Shown here in pieces: positions 3,213-33,859 of a DNA stretch of 35,411 nucleotides (the first letter of the stretch is position 1; every line of letters begins with the position of its first letter). The notes beneath the pieces are model-generated. The model made no database searches. It was not told the DNA's origin and was given only the letters and a program-made list of their open reading frames with translations. The stretch is from Candidatus Omnitrophota bacterium (GTDB lineage: Bacteria > Omnitrophota > Gorgyraeia > Aquiviventales > Aquiviventaceae): positions 1 through 35,411 of the forward strand of contig JAHFGX010000014.1 in the NCBI GenBank assembly GCA_023247215.1, written 5' to 3'. Both the position numbers and the translations under genes were made by a program.

Positions 3213-3658
3213 CGGGCATAGGTGTCAGACACTTTTTGCCGCACAAAAAGTGTCTGACACCTATGCTGGTCTGTGTGCTGCTGACGGGCTGCCTGCATCG
3301 CAGCTTGACCATCCGGTCCGAGCCGCCTGGAGCGGCGATCTTCGTCAACGATCACGATATGAAAAGCGTGACGCCGCACACCTACGACTTCATGTGGTAC
3401 GGCTGGCACCGCATCACGCTGACGAAACACGGCTATGACCGGTTGGACGACCTGACGCTGCTGAAGGCGCCGCCCCACCTGTGGATCCCCATGGACCTGG
3501 CCATGGAGCTGATGCCGTTCCCGGTCCGGGATGACAAAGTGTTGTCGTATCAGCTGAAGCCGAGCATCCCGCTGCCGGAGCCGGCGCGGCCGCCGTTGCC
3601 GCCCCGCGAGCTGCCGCCCGATCCGGCCGTGGACGAACCCCGAAAGGACGGCCCGTGA
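3209..3658 (+). CDS. PEGA-like lipoprotein inside the purine operon; N-terminus overlaps a palindromic repeat
   Basis: Starting at the ATG that overlaps the purB stop, the product is 149 residues. Its first 18 codons come almost wholly from a 23-bp palindrome and do not look like a signal sequence. From the in-frame Met at 3263 the protein reads [10 protein letters not shown], a very short lipoprotein signal with lipobox LTGC. A PEGA-type segment follows ([17 protein letters not shown]), then an aromatic-rich part and a Pro-rich tail. The mature protein is probably a small periplasmic lipoprotein. The palindrome may have replaced or truncated the original signal peptide, so the true start (3209 or 3263) is uncertain. 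It has no obvious purine role and is cotranscribed by position; its stop overlaps the purC start. Confidence 0.7.
3216..3266. repeat. REP-like perfect palindrome, 23-bp arms with 5-base loop
   Basis: The left arm 3216-3238 and right arm 3244-3266 are exact reverse complements, separated by CCGCA. Each arm contains the core GTGTCAGACAC (or its complement), which is itself nearly palindromic, so the element could fold as one long hairpin or a cross. AGGTGTCAGACAC-type palindromes are, as I recall, dispersed elements in many environmental bacterial genomes, probably related to REP elements moved by TnpA-REP transposases; no such transposase is in the window. It sits within the first 20 codons of the lipoprotein gene, two bases after the purB stop codon region. 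Confidence 0.85.
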
Positions 3659-22685: not shown

Positions 22686-24140
22686 ATGAGCGCTGTGCAA
22701 ATCATCATTTTGGCTGCGGGCGACGGGACGCGGATGAAATCGGACACGCCGAAAGTCCTGCACCCGCTCTGCGGGCGCCCCATGATCGCGTACGCCCTGG
22801 ATTTGGCCGCCTCGGCCGGCGTGAAGCAGCCGATTGTGATCCTGGGCAAGGCCGCCGAGCAGGTCAAGCCGATCCTGCCGAAGGAAGCGAGAGCGGTGAT
22901 CCAGCCCAAACCGCTTGGGACCGGGGATGCCGTGGCCCTCGCCAAGCGGGTCCTGGGCGGGTTCTCAGGCGACGTCGTGATCCTGTATGCCGATACGCCA
23001 TTGGTCCGGCGCATGACGATCCAGCGGCTCATCGAAACCCACCGGCGCGCTGGAGCCACCTGCACCCTATTGACGACCCACCTGGCGGACCCAACGGGCT
23101 ACGGGCGCGTCATCCGCGACGCCACCGGGGTGGTCACGGGGGTGGTGGAAGAAGCGGAAGCCAATGCGACGCAGCGGGCCATCCGGGAGGTCAACGTCGG
23201 ACCGATTTGCATGAAGGCCCATGCGATGTTTGAAGCGTTGGTCCAGGTCAAGCCCGCCTCGGCGACCAAAGAATGGTACCTGACCCAGGCCGTCGGCCTC
23301 TTGGCGCAGCAGCCCGGCACCAAATTCAGCACCGCCCGCCTGGATAACGTGATGGAAGCCCTAGGCGTCAATTCCCGAGTCGAGCTCGCGAAGGCCGTGG
23401 GCATCATCCGCCAGCGCATCATGGACGCGCATCTGCAAAACGGCGTCACCATCGTGGACCCGCACGCCACGTACATTGACCACGGGGTGACGATCGGCCA
23501 GGATACCGTCATCCACCCGGGCACCGTCATCGAATCCGGCGTGCACATCGGCAAGCGCTGCTCCATCGGGCCGTTCGCGCGGCTGCGCGCCGGGGTGGCC
23601 ATCGGCGATGAGACGCGGGTCGGCAATTTTGCGGAGCTGGTCCGCACGAAGGTCGGCGCGCGGGTGCGGATCCACCACGTCAGCTACCTGGGCGACGCCA
23701 CCATCGAAGATGAGGTCAACATCGGCGCCGGCACCATCACCGCGAATTTCGACGGGAAAGAGAAGCATGCCACGGTGATCGGCAAAGGCGCGTTCATCGG
23801 CTCCGACACGGTCCTTGTGTCCCCCGTCAAGGTGGGCCCCGGGGCCGTGACCGGCGCGGGCAGCGTTATCCCGAAGGGCCACGACGTGCCGCCCCGCGGC
23901 ATCGTGGTGGGCGTGCCCGCCCACCCGCTTGCCGGCGGCTCCTCCAAGCCGGCGGAGAAAGCGGCCGACAAGCGTGACGGCCACAACGGGGTCGCGAAGC
24001 CTGCGGCCCGCACGCCGGTTCGCAAGGCCGTGGTCCGGCGGGCGGCCAAACCGGCCCCGCGCCGCGCCGCGCGCCCGCCGCGCCGACCCGGACGGTCGGC
24101 GCGTCGTCAGGCGAAACGGCCGGTTCGGCGGAAGCGGTAA
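22686..24140 (+). CDS. glmU: Bifunctional GlcNAc-1-phosphate uridyltransferase / glucosamine-1-phosphate acetyltransferase with a basic C-terminal tail
   Basis: GlmU makes UDP-GlcNAc for peptidoglycan and lipid A (LpxA uses it). The N-terminal domain has ILAAGDGTRMKSDTPKVLHPLCG and VVILYADTPLV. The C-terminal left-handed beta-helix has hexapeptide repeats and HHVSYLGDATIEDEVNIGAGTITANFDGKEKHATVIGKGAFIGSDT. The normal fold ends near residue 417 (GVPAHPLAG). Residues 418-484 form an extra tail with 25 Lys/Arg in 67 residues and many Ala/Pro, unusual for GlmU. GAGGAG lies upstream of the ATG. prs follows after 12 bases. Confidence 0.96.
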   Translation: MSAVQIIILAAGDGTRMKSDTPKVLHPLCGRPMIAYALDLAASAGVKQPIVILGKAAEQVKPILPKEARAVIQPKPLGTGDAVALAKRVLGGFSGDVVILYADTPLVRRMTIQRLIETHRRAGATCTLLTTHLADPTGYGRVIRDATGVVTGVVEEAEANATQRAIREVNVGPICMKAHAMFEALVQVKPASATKEWYLTQAVGLLAQQPGTKFSTARLDNVMEALGVNSRVELAKAVGIIRQRIMDAHLQNGVTIVDPHATYIDHGVTIGQDTVIHPGTVIESGVHIGKRCSIGPFARLRAGVAIGDETRVGNFAELVRTKVGARVRIHHVSYLGDATIEDEVNIGAGTITANFDGKEKHATVIGKGAFIGSDTVLVSPVKVGPGAVTGAGSVIPKGHDVPPRGIVVGVPAHPLAGGSSKPAEKAADKRDGHNGVAKPAARTPVRKAVVRRAAKPAPRRAARPPRRPGRSARRQAKRPVRRKR

Positions 24141-29442: not shown

Positions 29443-31818
29443 GTGTCCAGCGCTGCGGCCGGAACCCCGTCGGTTCCGGTGAAGGAGCCGCCATCCGGGC
29501 GGCTACAAAATGGCCGCGCTGCGTGGGCCCTCCTGACGATGCTGCTGCTGGGAGGGGGTGGCCCGGCCTTCGCGGCTGAGGAGAATGCGCCGCCCCGCGT
29601 GGCCAGCGTGAACGTGACCGGCCTGCACACGATCGCCCCGGAGACCTGTCTGGCGCGCGTGCAGACCAAGCCCGGCATGCCGTATGCCGATGCGGTGGTC
29701 AGCGAGGACATCCGCCGGCTCTATGCGCTGGGCTATTTCACCGACATCCAGGTGCAGACGGAGCCGGCGCCGGACGGGATGCGCGTCGTCTTCCAAGTCA
29801 CGGAAAAGCCGACGATCGGCGCGATTCAATTCGAAGGGTTTCGGCGGTTCCGGCCTGACCGCCTTCGGCAGCTGCTGGGCGTGCAGACGGGCCAGCTCTA
29901 CGACCCCCGGAGGCTGAAGGACGGGGTGGAGAAGCTCAAGGCCGAGTACCGGCGCAAGGGCTACGCCAAGATCGCCATTGAGAGCAGTGTGGCGACCGAT
30001 CCGGCCACCAATCAGGCCACCGCGTACGTGGTGGCGGATGAGGGGCCGCAGATGCGCATCCGAAAAATTTTCGTCGAGGGCAACCTGGCATTCCCGGACG
30101 GCCGGATCATCACGCTCCTCAAGACCAAGCGCCGCCACTGGTTCACCTCCGGCGTGTACGACGAGCAGGTGCTGGAGGAAGACCTGGAGCGGATCCGCGC
30201 GTTTTACCGGCGGAACGGCTACCAGGACGTCCAGGTCGAGCAGACGCTGGCCGCCGACCCGTCCGGCCTCGCGCTATACCTGCACCTCAAGATGACCGAA
30301 GGCGCGCAGCACCGCGTGGGGACCGTGGCCCTCTCCGGGGTGACGCTGTTTCCGCCGGAGGACCTGCAAGTGCTCTTGCGCCTGAAGCCGGGCGCCGTCT
30401 ACAACACGGAGGTGCTGCAGGAGGACCTGCGCACCCTCACGCAGTATTACGGCGACCGCGGCTACATCCACGCCCAGGTGACCCCGGCGACGACGCTGGA
30501 TCCCGCCAGCAAGCGGGTGGACCTGGCGCTGCAAGTGGAGGAGCATGAGCTGACCTACGTGCGCCGCATCGACATCCGCGGGAACCTCCATACGAAAGAC
30601 GTGGTGGTGCGGCGGGAGATACGCATCCATCCCGGCGAGCCCTTCGACGGCTCCCGCATCCGCCGGTCCATCGAGCGGCTCTACAACCTGGGGTACTTCG
30701 AGGAAGTCAACGTGGATACGCAGGCCACGCCCCTGCCGCAGCATGACGATCTGGTGGTGAACGTCAAGGAAGCCAAGACCGGCAGCTTCAGCTTCGGCGG
30801 CGGGTTCTCGTCGGTGGACCGCGTGGTCGGCCTCGTCGAGGTGGAGCAGCGCAACTTCGATCTGTTCAACGTCCCGTCGTTCGTCGGCGCGGGACAGGAT
30901 CTGCGGTTCCGCGTCGAGGTCGGCACGGTGCGGCGCTATTTCGATCTGTCCTTCACCGAGCCGTGGATCTTCGGCCATCCGGTGTCCTTCGGGGTGGACG
31001 CCTTCAGCCGGACCCGCCTGCGCAGCCAGAATCTGGGGTTGGCGTTCGAAGAGCGCCGCCAGGGCGGCGGCCTCCGCTTGGGCAAAGATTTCGGGGAGAA
31101 CCTGCACCTGGGACTCGGGTATCAGCTCTTCCGGACGGACATTTCGGACGTCGTGGCGGCGTCCTCAGCCGACTTGAAGGCGGAACAGGGCCGCAGCGAC
31201 ATCAGCGAGGCCAGCGCGTCGCTCGCGTGGGATACGCGGGACAACCGCTTTGAGCCGAGCCGCGGGGTGATCGCGTTTGTCTCCTCGGACCTGGCGGGCG
31301 GGTTGCTGGCCGGCACCCGGGATTTCTACCGCCTGCAAAGCGGCGTGAGCACGTACCTGTCGCATTGGGACCGATTCACCCTGGAGACGCGCCTGAAGGC
31401 GGGTGTGGTCAATGCGTACGACAACACGGCCCAGGTGCCGATCTTCGAACGGTTCTTCGCGGGCGGGGCGGACACTATCCGGGGGTTCCGGGAGCGTCGC
31501 GTCGGCCCGCGCGATCCCGTCTCCAACGATCCGCTCGGCGGCGAGGCCATCTTCATGGGCACGCTGGAAGAGGTTGCCACCCTGCTGCAGGATGAGCGCG
31601 GCAAAGCCATCCTCAAAGGCTCGGTGTTCTATGACGTCGGAAACGTCTGGAAGAACGTGGGGGATTTGGGGCAGTCATTCGAAAGTGGGACCGGGGTTGG
31701 GATTCGGGTGAACACGCCCATCGGCCCGGTCCGGGTGGATCTGGGGTTTCCGATGACCCAATTGGGCGACGAGAAGCGCTCCCCCCGCGTGCACTTTAAT
31801 GTCAGCCGGAGCTTTTAA
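29443..31818 (+). CDS. bamA: Outer-membrane protein assembly factor BamA
   Basis: BamA inserts beta-barrel proteins in the outer membrane. The 791-residue product starts at a GTG. A signal peptide (ALLTMLLLGGGGPAFAA, about 29-45) is followed by five POTRA domains (about 50-440), seen as repeated strand-helix units such as IGAIQFEGFRRFRPDRL, IRKIFVEGNLAFPDGRI and VRRIDIRGNLHTKDVV. The C-terminal barrel has the loop-6 signature RGFRERRVGPRDP and ends in VSRSF, with the terminal aromatic residue used as the outer-membrane signal. The N-terminus before the signal peptide is about 28 residues long, so a later start is possible. An array of hairpins follows its stop. Confidence 0.96.
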   Translation: MSSAAAGTPSVPVKEPPSGRLQNGRAAWALLTMLLLGGGGPAFAAEENAPPRVASVNVTGLHTIAPETCLARVQTKPGMPYADAVVSEDIRRLYALGYFTDIQVQTEPAPDGMRVVFQVTEKPTIGAIQFEGFRRFRPDRLRQLLGVQTGQLYDPRRLKDGVEKLKAEYRRKGYAKIAIESSVATDPATNQATAYVVADEGPQMRIRKIFVEGNLAFPDGRIITLLKTKRRHWFTSGVYDEQVLEEDLERIRAFYRRNGYQDVQVEQTLAADPSGLALYLHLKMTEGAQHRVGTVALSGVTLFPPEDLQVLLRLKPGAVYNTEVLQEDLRTLTQYYGDRGYIHAQVTPATTLDPASKRVDLALQVEEHELTYVRRIDIRGNLHTKDVVVRREIRIHPGEPFDGSRIRRSIERLYNLGYFEEVNVDTQATPLPQHDDLVVNVKEAKTGSFSFGGGFSSVDRVVGLVEVEQRNFDLFNVPSFVGAGQDLRFRVEVGTVRRYFDLSFTEPWIFGHPVSFGVDAFSRTRLRSQNLGLAFEERRQGGGLRLGKDFGENLHLGLGYQLFRTDISDVVAASSADLKAEQGRSDISEASASLAWDTRDNRFEPSRGVIAFVSSDLAGGLLAGTRDFYRLQSGVSTYLSHWDRFTLETRLKAGVVNAYDNTAQVPIFERFFAGGADTIRGFRERRVGPRDPVSNDPLGGEAIFMGTLEEVATLLQDERGKAILKGSVFYDVGNVWKNVGDLGQSFESGTGVGIRVNTPIGPVRVDLGFPMTQLGDEKRSPRVHFNVSRSF

Positions 31819-31830
31819 CCGCCAACAGAG

Positions 31831-31935
31831 GCCGAGCGCCCGCCGCGCTCGGCGCAGCCCACGCCATCGAGGCGTGGGCGAAGTGCCGAACATGCGGATG
31901 TTCGGCCATTCCGCGGCTACCCCGATGGTAGCCGC
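31831..31935 (+). repeat. Array of four consecutive perfect 9-bp hairpins upstream of skp
   Basis: Four palindromes of different sequence stand in a row. H1: GCCGAGCGC (31831-31839) with GCGCTCGGC (31845-31853). H2: GCCCACGCC (31857-31865) with GGCGTGGGC (31871-31879). H3: GCCGAACAT (31885-31893) with ATGTTCGGC (31898-31906). H4: GCGGCTACC (31913-31921) with GGTAGCCGC (31927-31935). Each stem is exactly 9 bp without mismatch, with loops of 5, 5, 4 and 5 bases and spacers of 3, 5 and 6 bases, giving a pitch of 26-28 bases. They fill nearly the whole gap between bamA and the skp ribosome site. No T-run follows, so they are not plain terminators. Confidence 0.92.
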
Positions 31936-31959
31936 TTCAGAGGGAGGAGGGTACGCAGT

Positions 31960-32499
31960 ATGAGATTCCCGTCGGTTTCTGGAACAAGCTGGATGGTGGC
32001 CGCGACAGCCGCCGCGCTGTTGGTGAGCGCGCCCGCCGGCGCGGCCGAGCTGAAAATCGGCTATGTGAATTTGGTGCGGGTGTTTGACAGCTATCAGCGC
32101 ACGAAGGATTCCGAGCAGGTGCTGGAGCAGCAGGGGAAGCAAAAACAGGCCGAGCTGGAAGGCCGCCTCGGCGAGCTCAAGAAAATGCGCCAGAACCTGG
32201 AGCTGCTCAATGACCAGACCAAAGACGCGAAGTCCAAGGAGCTAGAGGAAAAATCGGACGAGTTCCAGCGGATGAAAACCAAAAGCGAGCGCGAGTTGGT
32301 GCGCGACCGCAATCAAGTCGCCAAGCAGATCCTGGAGGAGATTGACGGCGCCGTCACCGCCTACGCCAAGGCCAACGGGTTCTCGCTTGTGCTGGACCAG
32401 CGCTCCCTGGTGGTCGGCGACGACGCCTATGACGTCAGCGACGAGGTGTTGAAATTGCTCAACGACCGGTATGCCGCCAGCGGCAAGAAAGCCCCATGA
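31960..32499 (+). CDS. skp: Periplasmic chaperone Skp/OmpH
   Basis: Skp holds unfolded outer-membrane proteins in the periplasm on the way to BamA. The 179-residue product has a signal peptide ending APAGA-AE (cleavage near residue 28). The mature start [15 protein letters not shown] is followed by a long charged coiled coil (about 50-130) and a C-terminal [28 protein letters not shown]. The ATG has a very strong AGGGAGGAGG ribosome site. The hairpin array stands directly before that site, so it may stabilise the message or insulate it from bamA. lpxD usually lies next; here lpxC-fabZ follows. Confidence 0.95.
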
Positions 32500-32509
32500 T
32501 CGTTCGACG
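32495..32509. repeat. Partial copy of the short repeat at the skp stop codon
   Basis: CATGATCGTTCGACG here differs by one base from CATGATCCTTCGACG at 4373-4387. In both places the TGA of CATGATC is the stop codon of the upstream gene (skp and purC). The GTCGAACCATG half found before purS and nrdR is missing here, and the lpxC start lies 25 bases further on. Confidence 0.4.
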
Positions 32510-32533
32510 CGCGCCAGCCAGCGGAGCCGCCTC

Positions 32534-33859
32534 ATGACGGAGCGCCAGCGCACCTTGGCGCAGCCGGTTGCCATTGAGGGGGTCGGGCTGCATACCGGCG
32601 AAGCCGTGACCATGCGGGTGACGCCGGCCCCGGAGAACGTCGGGGTGGTGTTCATCCGGACGGATCTGCCCCACCGCCCGACCATCCCCGCCACGCCCTC
32701 CCACGCGGTGGACACCGGCATGGGCATGCGGCGCACCAGCCTCACCAAGGACGGGGTCGAGGTGCAGACCGTGGAGCACTTCATGGCGTCCTTGTGGGGC
32801 GTGGGCATTGACAACGCCTACGTGGAAATCTCCGGCATCGAGCTGCCGGGCCTCGACGGCTCCGCCGCCCCGTTCGCCGAGCGGCTGGCATCCGCCGGCA
32901 TCGTCGAGCAGGCCGCCCTGCGCAAGTTCTTCCCGCTGCGGGAGCCGATCGTCATTGACGAGGGCGATTGCCTGCTGGCGGTGTTCCCGAATCCCACGCT
33001 GAAGGTGTCCTACACCCTGAGCTACCCGCAGGCCTCCCTCAAGTCCCAGTTCGCGTCTTTTGAGATGAACGGCCATCACCGGTTCGAGGAGGCCATCGCC
33101 CCGGCGCGAACCTTCTGCGCGCAGGAAGAAGCCGAAGCGCTCCGCGCCCAGGGGTTCGGGAAGGGCGCCAACTACACGAACACCCTCGTCGTGGGCGCCC
33201 AAGGGGTGATCCAGAACACCCTGCGGTTCGACGACGAGTTCGTGCGCCACAAGATCCTCGACCTGCTGGGGGATTTGTACCTGCTGGGAGCGCACCTGAA
33301 GGCGAACGTCATCGCCATCAAAAGCGGCCACCGCCTGAACGTCAAGCTGCTCCACAAGTTGGAGCAGGCCCGGGAGCAGTGGCTCGTCGGCGCGCTGCAA
33401 TCTCAGAGCCAGGAAGTGATGGTGGGCCCGCAGCTGGACATTCTCCAAATCCAAAAAGTCCTGCCGCACCGCTATCCGTTCCTGCTGGTGGACCGCATCA
33501 CGGAGCTGACGGAGACCAAGGCGGTGGGGATCAAGTGCGTGACGATGAACGAATATTTCTTCCGCGGCCACTTTCCCGGCCGCCCGGTCATGCCGGGCGT
33601 CTTGATCATCGAGGCGATGGCGCAGGTCGGGGGGATCCTCATCCTGAACAAAGGCGAAAACCTCGGGAAGCTGGCCTATTTCATGTCGGTGGACAAGGTG
33701 AAATTCCGCAAGCCGGTGATGCCGGGCGATCAGCTCATCCTCGAGGCGGAGATCATCAAGCTGCGCTCGCGGACCGGCCAGCTCAGCGCGAAAGCCTACG
33801 TGGACGGCAAGCTCGTGTGCGAAGGCGAGCTGATGTTCGCGCTGGCCGAGAGCATCTGA
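32534..33859 (+). CDS. lpxC-fabZ: Fused UDP-3-O-acyl-GlcNAc deacetylase / 3-hydroxyacyl-ACP dehydratase
   Basis: The 441-residue protein joins LpxC (about 1-280) to FabZ (about 300-441). LpxC commits UDP-acyl-GlcNAc to lipid A. Its zinc ligands are His82 (TVEHFMAS), His239 and Asp243 ([11 protein letters not shown]), with Glu81 and catalytic His266 (SGHRLN) also present. FabZ dehydrates 3-hydroxyacyl-ACP; [12 protein letters not shown] and His346/Glu360 ([21 protein letters not shown]) are intact. The two compete for the same hydroxyacyl-ACP pool, so fusion fixes their ratio. This fusion is known from Bacteroidetes and Chlorobi and a few other lineages. The frame opens earlier inside skp; the ATG at 32534 gives the normal LpxC N-terminus. 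Confidence 0.96.

Follow-up and report, generated by a model that had tools for sequence, protein, structure and literature searches.

A nested two-hairpin palindrome, probably a dispersed mobile element, in the bamA-skp gap of an Omnitrophota genome

The window analyzed here (the whole stretch of 35,411 nt, contig 6 of a 1.46-Mb draft Candidatus Omnitrophota genome in 57 contigs) carries bamA, skp, and, at 32471-33859, a gene for an LpxC-FabZ fusion (PF03331 plus PF07977). Between the bamA stop codon (TAA, 31816-31818) and the skp start codon (ATG, 31960), 105 of the 141 nt are occupied by an array of four perfect 9-bp hairpins, designated H1 to H4. A first-pass annotation of the letters had described these stems, with loops of 4 to 5 nt and a pitch of 26 to 28 nt, and a hairpin scan recovered them as described; the successive start spacings are 26, 28, and 28 nt. 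Across the whole window, six hairpins have a perfect stem of 9 bp or more and a loop of 3 to 6 nt, and four of these are packed into the 105 nt; first-order Markov sequences of the same composition contained a mean of 1.15 such hairpins per window. In the RNA fold, all four stems form (minimum free energy of -78 kcal/mol; z = -4.96 against 200 shuffles), and the Shine-Dalgarno stretch of skp is unpaired in the centroid fold. Neither a terminator-like nor a promoter-like site was found at the array, nor was a T-run, and an Rfam search of the array region returned no match. The features of the locus are as follows.

29443 to 31818, plus strand: bamA, with five POTRA domains and Omp85 (Pfam PF07244 and PF01103)
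31827 to 31830, plus strand: AGAG, the 5' flank and putative left half of the target (consensus AAG^RRG; flank counts of 46 copies, and empty sites)
31831 to 31940, plus strand: the whole composite element, four hairpins plus the TTCAG end (own-genome repeat search, covariance model R1, and composites of the same layout elsewhere)
31831 to 31853, plus strand: H1, the A hairpin of the outer module, GCCGAGCGC ccgcc GCGCTCGGC, 9 bp, loop of 5 nt
31854 to 31907, minus strand: the inner inverted module (H2 plus H3), 54 nt (joining of its flanks; minus-strand R1 match)
31857 to 31879, minus strand: H2, an inverted B-type hairpin, 9 bp, loop of 5 nt (loop ATCGA, the reverse complement of the B loop TCGAT)
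31885 to 31906, minus strand: H3, an inverted A-type hairpin, 9 bp, loop of 4 nt (R1 match)
31908 to 31912, plus strand: the ATTCC linker of the outer module, nearly invariant among copies (alignment A1)
31913 to 31935, plus strand: H4, the B hairpin of the outer module, GCGGCTACC ccgat GGTAGCCGC, 9 bp, loop of 5 nt
31936 to 31940, plus strand: TTCAG, the 3' end of the element, common to most copies
31941 to 31951, plus strand: AGGGAGGAGGG, the putative right half of the target and the Shine-Dalgarno stretch of skp, 9 to 19 nt before the ATG at 31960, unpaired in the fold
31960 to 32499, plus strand: skp, an OmpH-like chaperone gene (Pfam PF03938, E = 7e-28)

Sequences related to the array are dispersed through the genome. 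A BLAST search with positions 31780-31990 gave 20 matches in the source genome, and the basic unit proved to be a two-hairpin module of ∼56 nt, in the order A hairpin, ATTCC, B hairpin, TTCAG. Typical source-genome copies consist of two hairpins only (the equivalents of H1, ATTCC, and H4), followed by TTCAG and then by a Shine-Dalgarno sequence and an ATG. A covariance model of the module, R1, was built from 22 copies; it matched 27 sites in the source genome, where a search for further hairpin runs had been proposed, and was present in 19 of the 27 genomes of its family. Outside the family, R1 matches occurred in two genomes of a class-wide sample and in a few more across the phylum, and an exact-pattern scan of named genomes gave a single match, in Filobacillus milosensis, which is probably due to chance. 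Double-sided, pairing-preserving changes were found at 8 of the 18 base pairs of the module, a number reached in none of 500 shuffles, and as judged from these alignments the pairing is kept while the stem sequence varies among copies, as the first-pass annotation had proposed. The stem GCGGCTACC is private to the source genome among the copies read, a pattern such as would follow a within-genome burst. The 5' end of bamA contains, at 29454-29533, a degenerate match to the module on the minus strand, weak at 31.4 bits, and a lone 10-bp hairpin at 24078-24103, CGCGCCGACC cggac GGTCGGCGCG, resembles the B hairpin of the GGAACC subtype. At L092 (G022), L093 (G026), L029 (G004), and L033 (G020), the module is surrounded by longer mosaic repeats with extra hairpins (GACCGAGCCGGGG... 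GAAGTGCCG).

Two R1 matches overlap within the array. H3 and H4 form a plus-strand match (31881-31940, 58.9 bits), and H3 and H2 form a minus-strand match (31852-31910, 45.6 bits, E = 6.6e-8). Read in this way, the array is an outer module (H1 plus H4) with a second, inverted module (H2 plus H3) nested inside it, between the A hairpin and the ATTCC linker, and the loop order is A, B', A', B. When the flanks of 31854-31907 were joined, the resulting sequence, GCCGAGCGCCCGCCGCGCTCGGCATTCCGCGGCTACCCCGATGGTAGCCGCTTCAG, differed at 1 position in 56 from source-genome copies L002 and L005. The earlier view that the array is not a recent duplication consequently needs dividing: it does not hold for H1 plus H4, given that single difference, and it stands for the more diverged inner H2 plus H3.

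The same layout was found in six further composites of 107 to 111 nt (three in G022, one each in G015 and G013, and one at G000:C15; that of G015 was entered by hand from an earlier sequence reading), so that four genera are represented and the layout is peculiar neither to one assembly nor to skp. In the composites of the other genera, canonical modules were likewise restored, at ∼83 to 94% identity, when the sequences on either side of the inner module were joined (BLAST, among the matches listed). Across the seven composites, 13 of 36 base pairs, distributed over all four helices, carried double-sided compensatory changes, again with 0 of 500 shuffles reaching that number. A second layout, in which the inner module follows ATTCC, occurs at G000:C4 and G013:C40. 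The composite either spread as an old unit or arose by repeated identical nesting, and the shared position of the inner module favors the old unit. Our account of the locus carries the caveat that the composite at skp may be such an old unit and not a fresh nesting.

The first-pass annotation had listed, among possible roles for the array, a message stabilizer or processing site for skp or a block of protein-binding sites, and the comparisons do not support any of these as its primary identity: the array is absent from the bamA-skp gap in all 21 relatives in which the gap is readable, and near-identical copies precede genes of unrelated function, adjoin tRNA genes, or lie within coding sequences. 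Its last option, a composite of separate palindromic insertions, is the one that agrees with the nested modules and dispersed copies. Empty orthologous sites were found in G001, a draft genome of the same genus that differs by ∼20% in DNA sequence and is the single genome used for this comparison; they read CTAAG^GAGGGAG, TAAAG^GAGTAG, and ATGAG^GAGG. At the rpsM-rpsK junction, the empty site in G001 is CCTAAG^GAGCACACATG, compared to TAAG-element-AGGGAGG in the source genome, and the element was present at this junction in no other relative in which the junction was readable. Some empty sites (those of L002 and the CobA locus) are noisy because of the DNA difference from G001. No target-site duplication was seen at the empty sites.

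Flanking sequences of 46 copies pointed to a preferred target. The left flank is A(A)G, with G at position -1 in 87% and A at position -2 in 70%, and the right flank is purine-purine-G (G in 80%). From these counts we infer an insertion target of AAG^RRG, with element ends uncertain by ∼1 nt owing to repeated G residues at the junction. At the empty sites, insertion is usually in a Shine-Dalgarno sequence, and a working GAGG is left 3' of the element. Of 70 copies, 26 have a Shine-Dalgarno sequence and ATG downstream on the same strand (including the copy G000:C12, which really sits inside a gene), compared to 2.4% of random positions, and none have them on the opposite strand. This same-strand placement just before an ATG arises because AAG^GAGG is itself a Shine-Dalgarno sequence. 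No palindromic repeats that target Shine-Dalgarno sequences were found in the open-access library searched.

The genes behind the copies have no common theme; they include rpsK and genes for a coaBC-like flavoprotein, a PstS-like protein, a ferredoxin, a carbamoyltransferase, methionine synthase, and an NIL domain protein. Other copies are in frame within protein domains (TP_methylase of a CobA/HemD fusion, radical SAM of a MiaB-like protein in G022, and MoeA in G004), near the N terminus (TruB and MurD), or near the C terminus (a TrpG-like amidotransferase and CheR). The CobA copy replaces sequence present in G001 and does not lengthen it. Two candidates were rejected as clean in-frame insertions: C36:69951, which sits at a TruB-RibF junction, and the copy G000:C12, which takes the place of a stretch of similar length in G001. 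A tRNA gene is found no more than 400 nt away from about 20 of the 70 copies. At L203, from another family, a partial tRNA-Thr copy is interrupted by the element, and the joined flanks match the adjacent intact tRNA-Thr gene at 98% over 52 nt (among the matches listed); at L174, the interrupted partial copy is of tRNA-Leu, and the element follows CCTTAG, the intact gene having CCTTAGGAG at this place. It is as if the element had entered the tRNA gene and an intact copy had been kept or rebuilt alongside. Partial duplicates of the adjacent tRNA accompany the copies at L174 (1430-1690), L203 (1424-1475), L024, and L013.

No transposase gene was found inside or beside the element. Among the 27 family genomes, Y1/RAYT genes and the element occurred together in 13, the element alone in 6, Y1 alone in 6, and neither in 2 (P = 1), and the 30 Y1 loci included one strong R1 match. 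Some element-bearing draft genomes have no Y1 gene, for which action of Y1 in trans or loss of its gene is a possible account. A RAYT as the mobilizer was set aside as unsupported; Y1/RAYT genes neither flank nor co-occur with the element. The sole RAYT gene of the source genome (L016) is flanked by palindromes of a different repeat, AAGTGTCAGACACTTTTT, which also occurs in the window at 3216-3266 as a perfect 23-bp palindrome (GCATAGGTGTCAGACACTTTTT...); because it flanks the only Y1/RAYT gene of the genome, AAGTGTCAGACACTTTTT looks like the repeat moved by that RAYT.

IS200/IS605-type elements have subterminal hairpins and insert 3' of a short specific sequence with no target duplication. 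The element described here has the same fixed short 5' target, absence of duplication, and hairpin ends, but unlike them it has no accompanying transposase gene. Lack of a target-site duplication at the empty sites also sets it apart from classical MITEs of the DDE type. BIMEs of Escherichia coli are mosaics of palindromes in transcribed gaps for which binding of gyrase, IHF, or DNA polymerase I has been proposed. Alternating palindrome orientation, evident here from the plus- and minus-strand R1 matches, is common to both, but the order A B' A' B results from a module nested in a module; sequence relation to BIMEs was judged by the Rfam search, with no match.

REP sequences comprise the GTAG and CGTC superfamilies, and CGTC families have stems of 8 to 9 bp and loops of 4 to 5 nt (Di Nocera et al. 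2013, PMC3733652). The element resembles REPs in its short perfect stems with compensatory variants, its dispersal mostly between genes and occasionally within them, and its paired units in opposite orientation; it differs from them in having no terminal GTAG or CGTC tag (its left flank is AAG and its right flank TTCAG/RRG), in a unit of two dissimilar hairpins with a conserved ATTCC linker, and in numbering tens of copies, not hundreds. In REPINs, two palindromes form one mobile unit, proposed to be moved as a folded single strand by the Y1 enzyme RAYT (Bertels and Rainey 2011, PMC3116915). The element here likewise combines two palindromes in what would be one mobile unit, but its A and B hairpins, with distinct sequences and loops and a common orientation, are not an inverted pair of one REP, and the element is not associated with Y1/RAYT genes. 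Rickettsia palindromic elements (RPEs; reviewed in PMC2229807) lie in intergenic positions and also in frame within conserved protein genes, of which TruB is one (PMC3733652). The in-frame copies in CobA/HemD, MiaB-like, MoeA, TruB, and MurD genes are RPE-like, whereas the element is G+C rich, two-hairpin, and Shine-Dalgarno targeting and belongs to an unrelated uncultured group; the check for sequence relation was the Rfam search, which gave no match. Its anatomy (paired end hairpins, a fixed short target, no duplication, and strong strand preference) would work like single-strand transposition of the IS200/IS605 and REP types (PMC3116915, PMC3733652), and membership in these is not claimed. 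The best reading of these comparisons is that the element would function like a REP, REPIN, or RPE yet lacks the sequence tags and transposase association of the named families.

We conclude that the array is very probably a copy of a palindromic mobile element that is dispersed and non-autonomous, with a two-hairpin unit and, in this copy, an inverted second module nested within it. Such an element would move as a folded DNA strand and insert 3' of (A)AG wherever RRG comes next, with no duplication of the target, and the Shine-Dalgarno sequence AAG^GAGG at gene junctions would often be hit. Because GAGG is retained, the gene downstream can still be translated, so insertions of this kind would be tolerable. 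The element looks like a hitchhiker and not like a purpose-built device for control of skp. Once transcribed, its hairpins might hinder 3' exonucleases or divide the bamA mRNA from that of skp; an effect on skp mRNA or expression is possible as a secondary, putative by-product. It is conceivable, if on balance doubtful, that this is a family-specific palindrome that targets the Shine-Dalgarno core (AAG^GAGG) and re-forms a functional ribosome-binding site at its 3' boundary, that it spreads into operons, even between ribosomal protein genes, at little cost, and that it is moved by a non-RAYT enzyme and nests within itself to form long tandem-hairpin leaders.

A functional RNA leader, stabilizing or processing the bamA-skp transcript to set distinct levels of Skp and bamA and reused before other genes, would fit the location of the array within an apparent operon, its strong fold with the Shine-Dalgarno stretch left free, and the sense orientation of the gene-preceding copies, and REPs in general have been proposed to act in mRNA stabilization (PMC3733652). 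The compensatory changes that keep the stems paired could also reflect RNA function and to that extent count against the mobile-element reading. However, the array is not conserved at this locus among relatives, the downstream genes share no theme, copies also lie within coding sequences and beside tRNA genes, and the sense orientation would follow from the target motif itself; a leader of this kind is unlikely.

Protein binding to the DNA, by gyrase, IHF, or a nucleoid protein for example, has been proposed for BIMEs, and a set of such sites is very unlikely here: the palindromes do alternate in orientation as in BIMEs, and linker and loop letters are conserved, but ∼27 copies are few for a nucleoid role, and in-frame copies inside proteins fit passive spread better. 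We consider it more improbable again that the array terminates or attenuates the bamA unit. Strong G+C-rich hairpins do follow soon after the stop codon, but the T-run that follows the hairpin of an intrinsic terminator and any terminator-like site are both absent, in line with the first-pass view that plain termination was unlikely; moreover, the array separates codirectional genes, and the copy at rpsM-rpsK would cut a ribosomal operon. Although the genome is a draft, an assembly artifact or chance is scarcely credible, as independent assemblies from three other genera have the same four-hairpin layout and only ∼1.2 such hairpins are expected per window.

If the mobile-element reading is correct, an apparently unique RNA structure becomes a mobile family that can be traced and that has empty sites, a target motif, and a nested form, and strong multihairpin operon leaders can arise without selection for regulation. 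The target motif would directly explain the sense-strand bias at start codons, and a family with no attached transposase would provide a test case for the spread of RAYT-less, REP-like elements.

Repeats of other kinds occupy the same junctions in relatives. At rpsM-rpsK, where the source genome has a module, G003 (L181) has a different 15-bp palindrome, CGGTATCAGATACCA ggc TGGTATCTGATACCG. The bamA-skp gap of most relatives (L038, L039, L041, L042, L044, L050, L051, and L053) contains repeats with a 7-nt period (e.g., GACAGGAGACAGGAGACAT), which are absent upstream of skp in the source genome. The part of skp that encodes the signal peptide contains the reverse complement of these repeats, and a long hairpin could therefore form in the skp start region.
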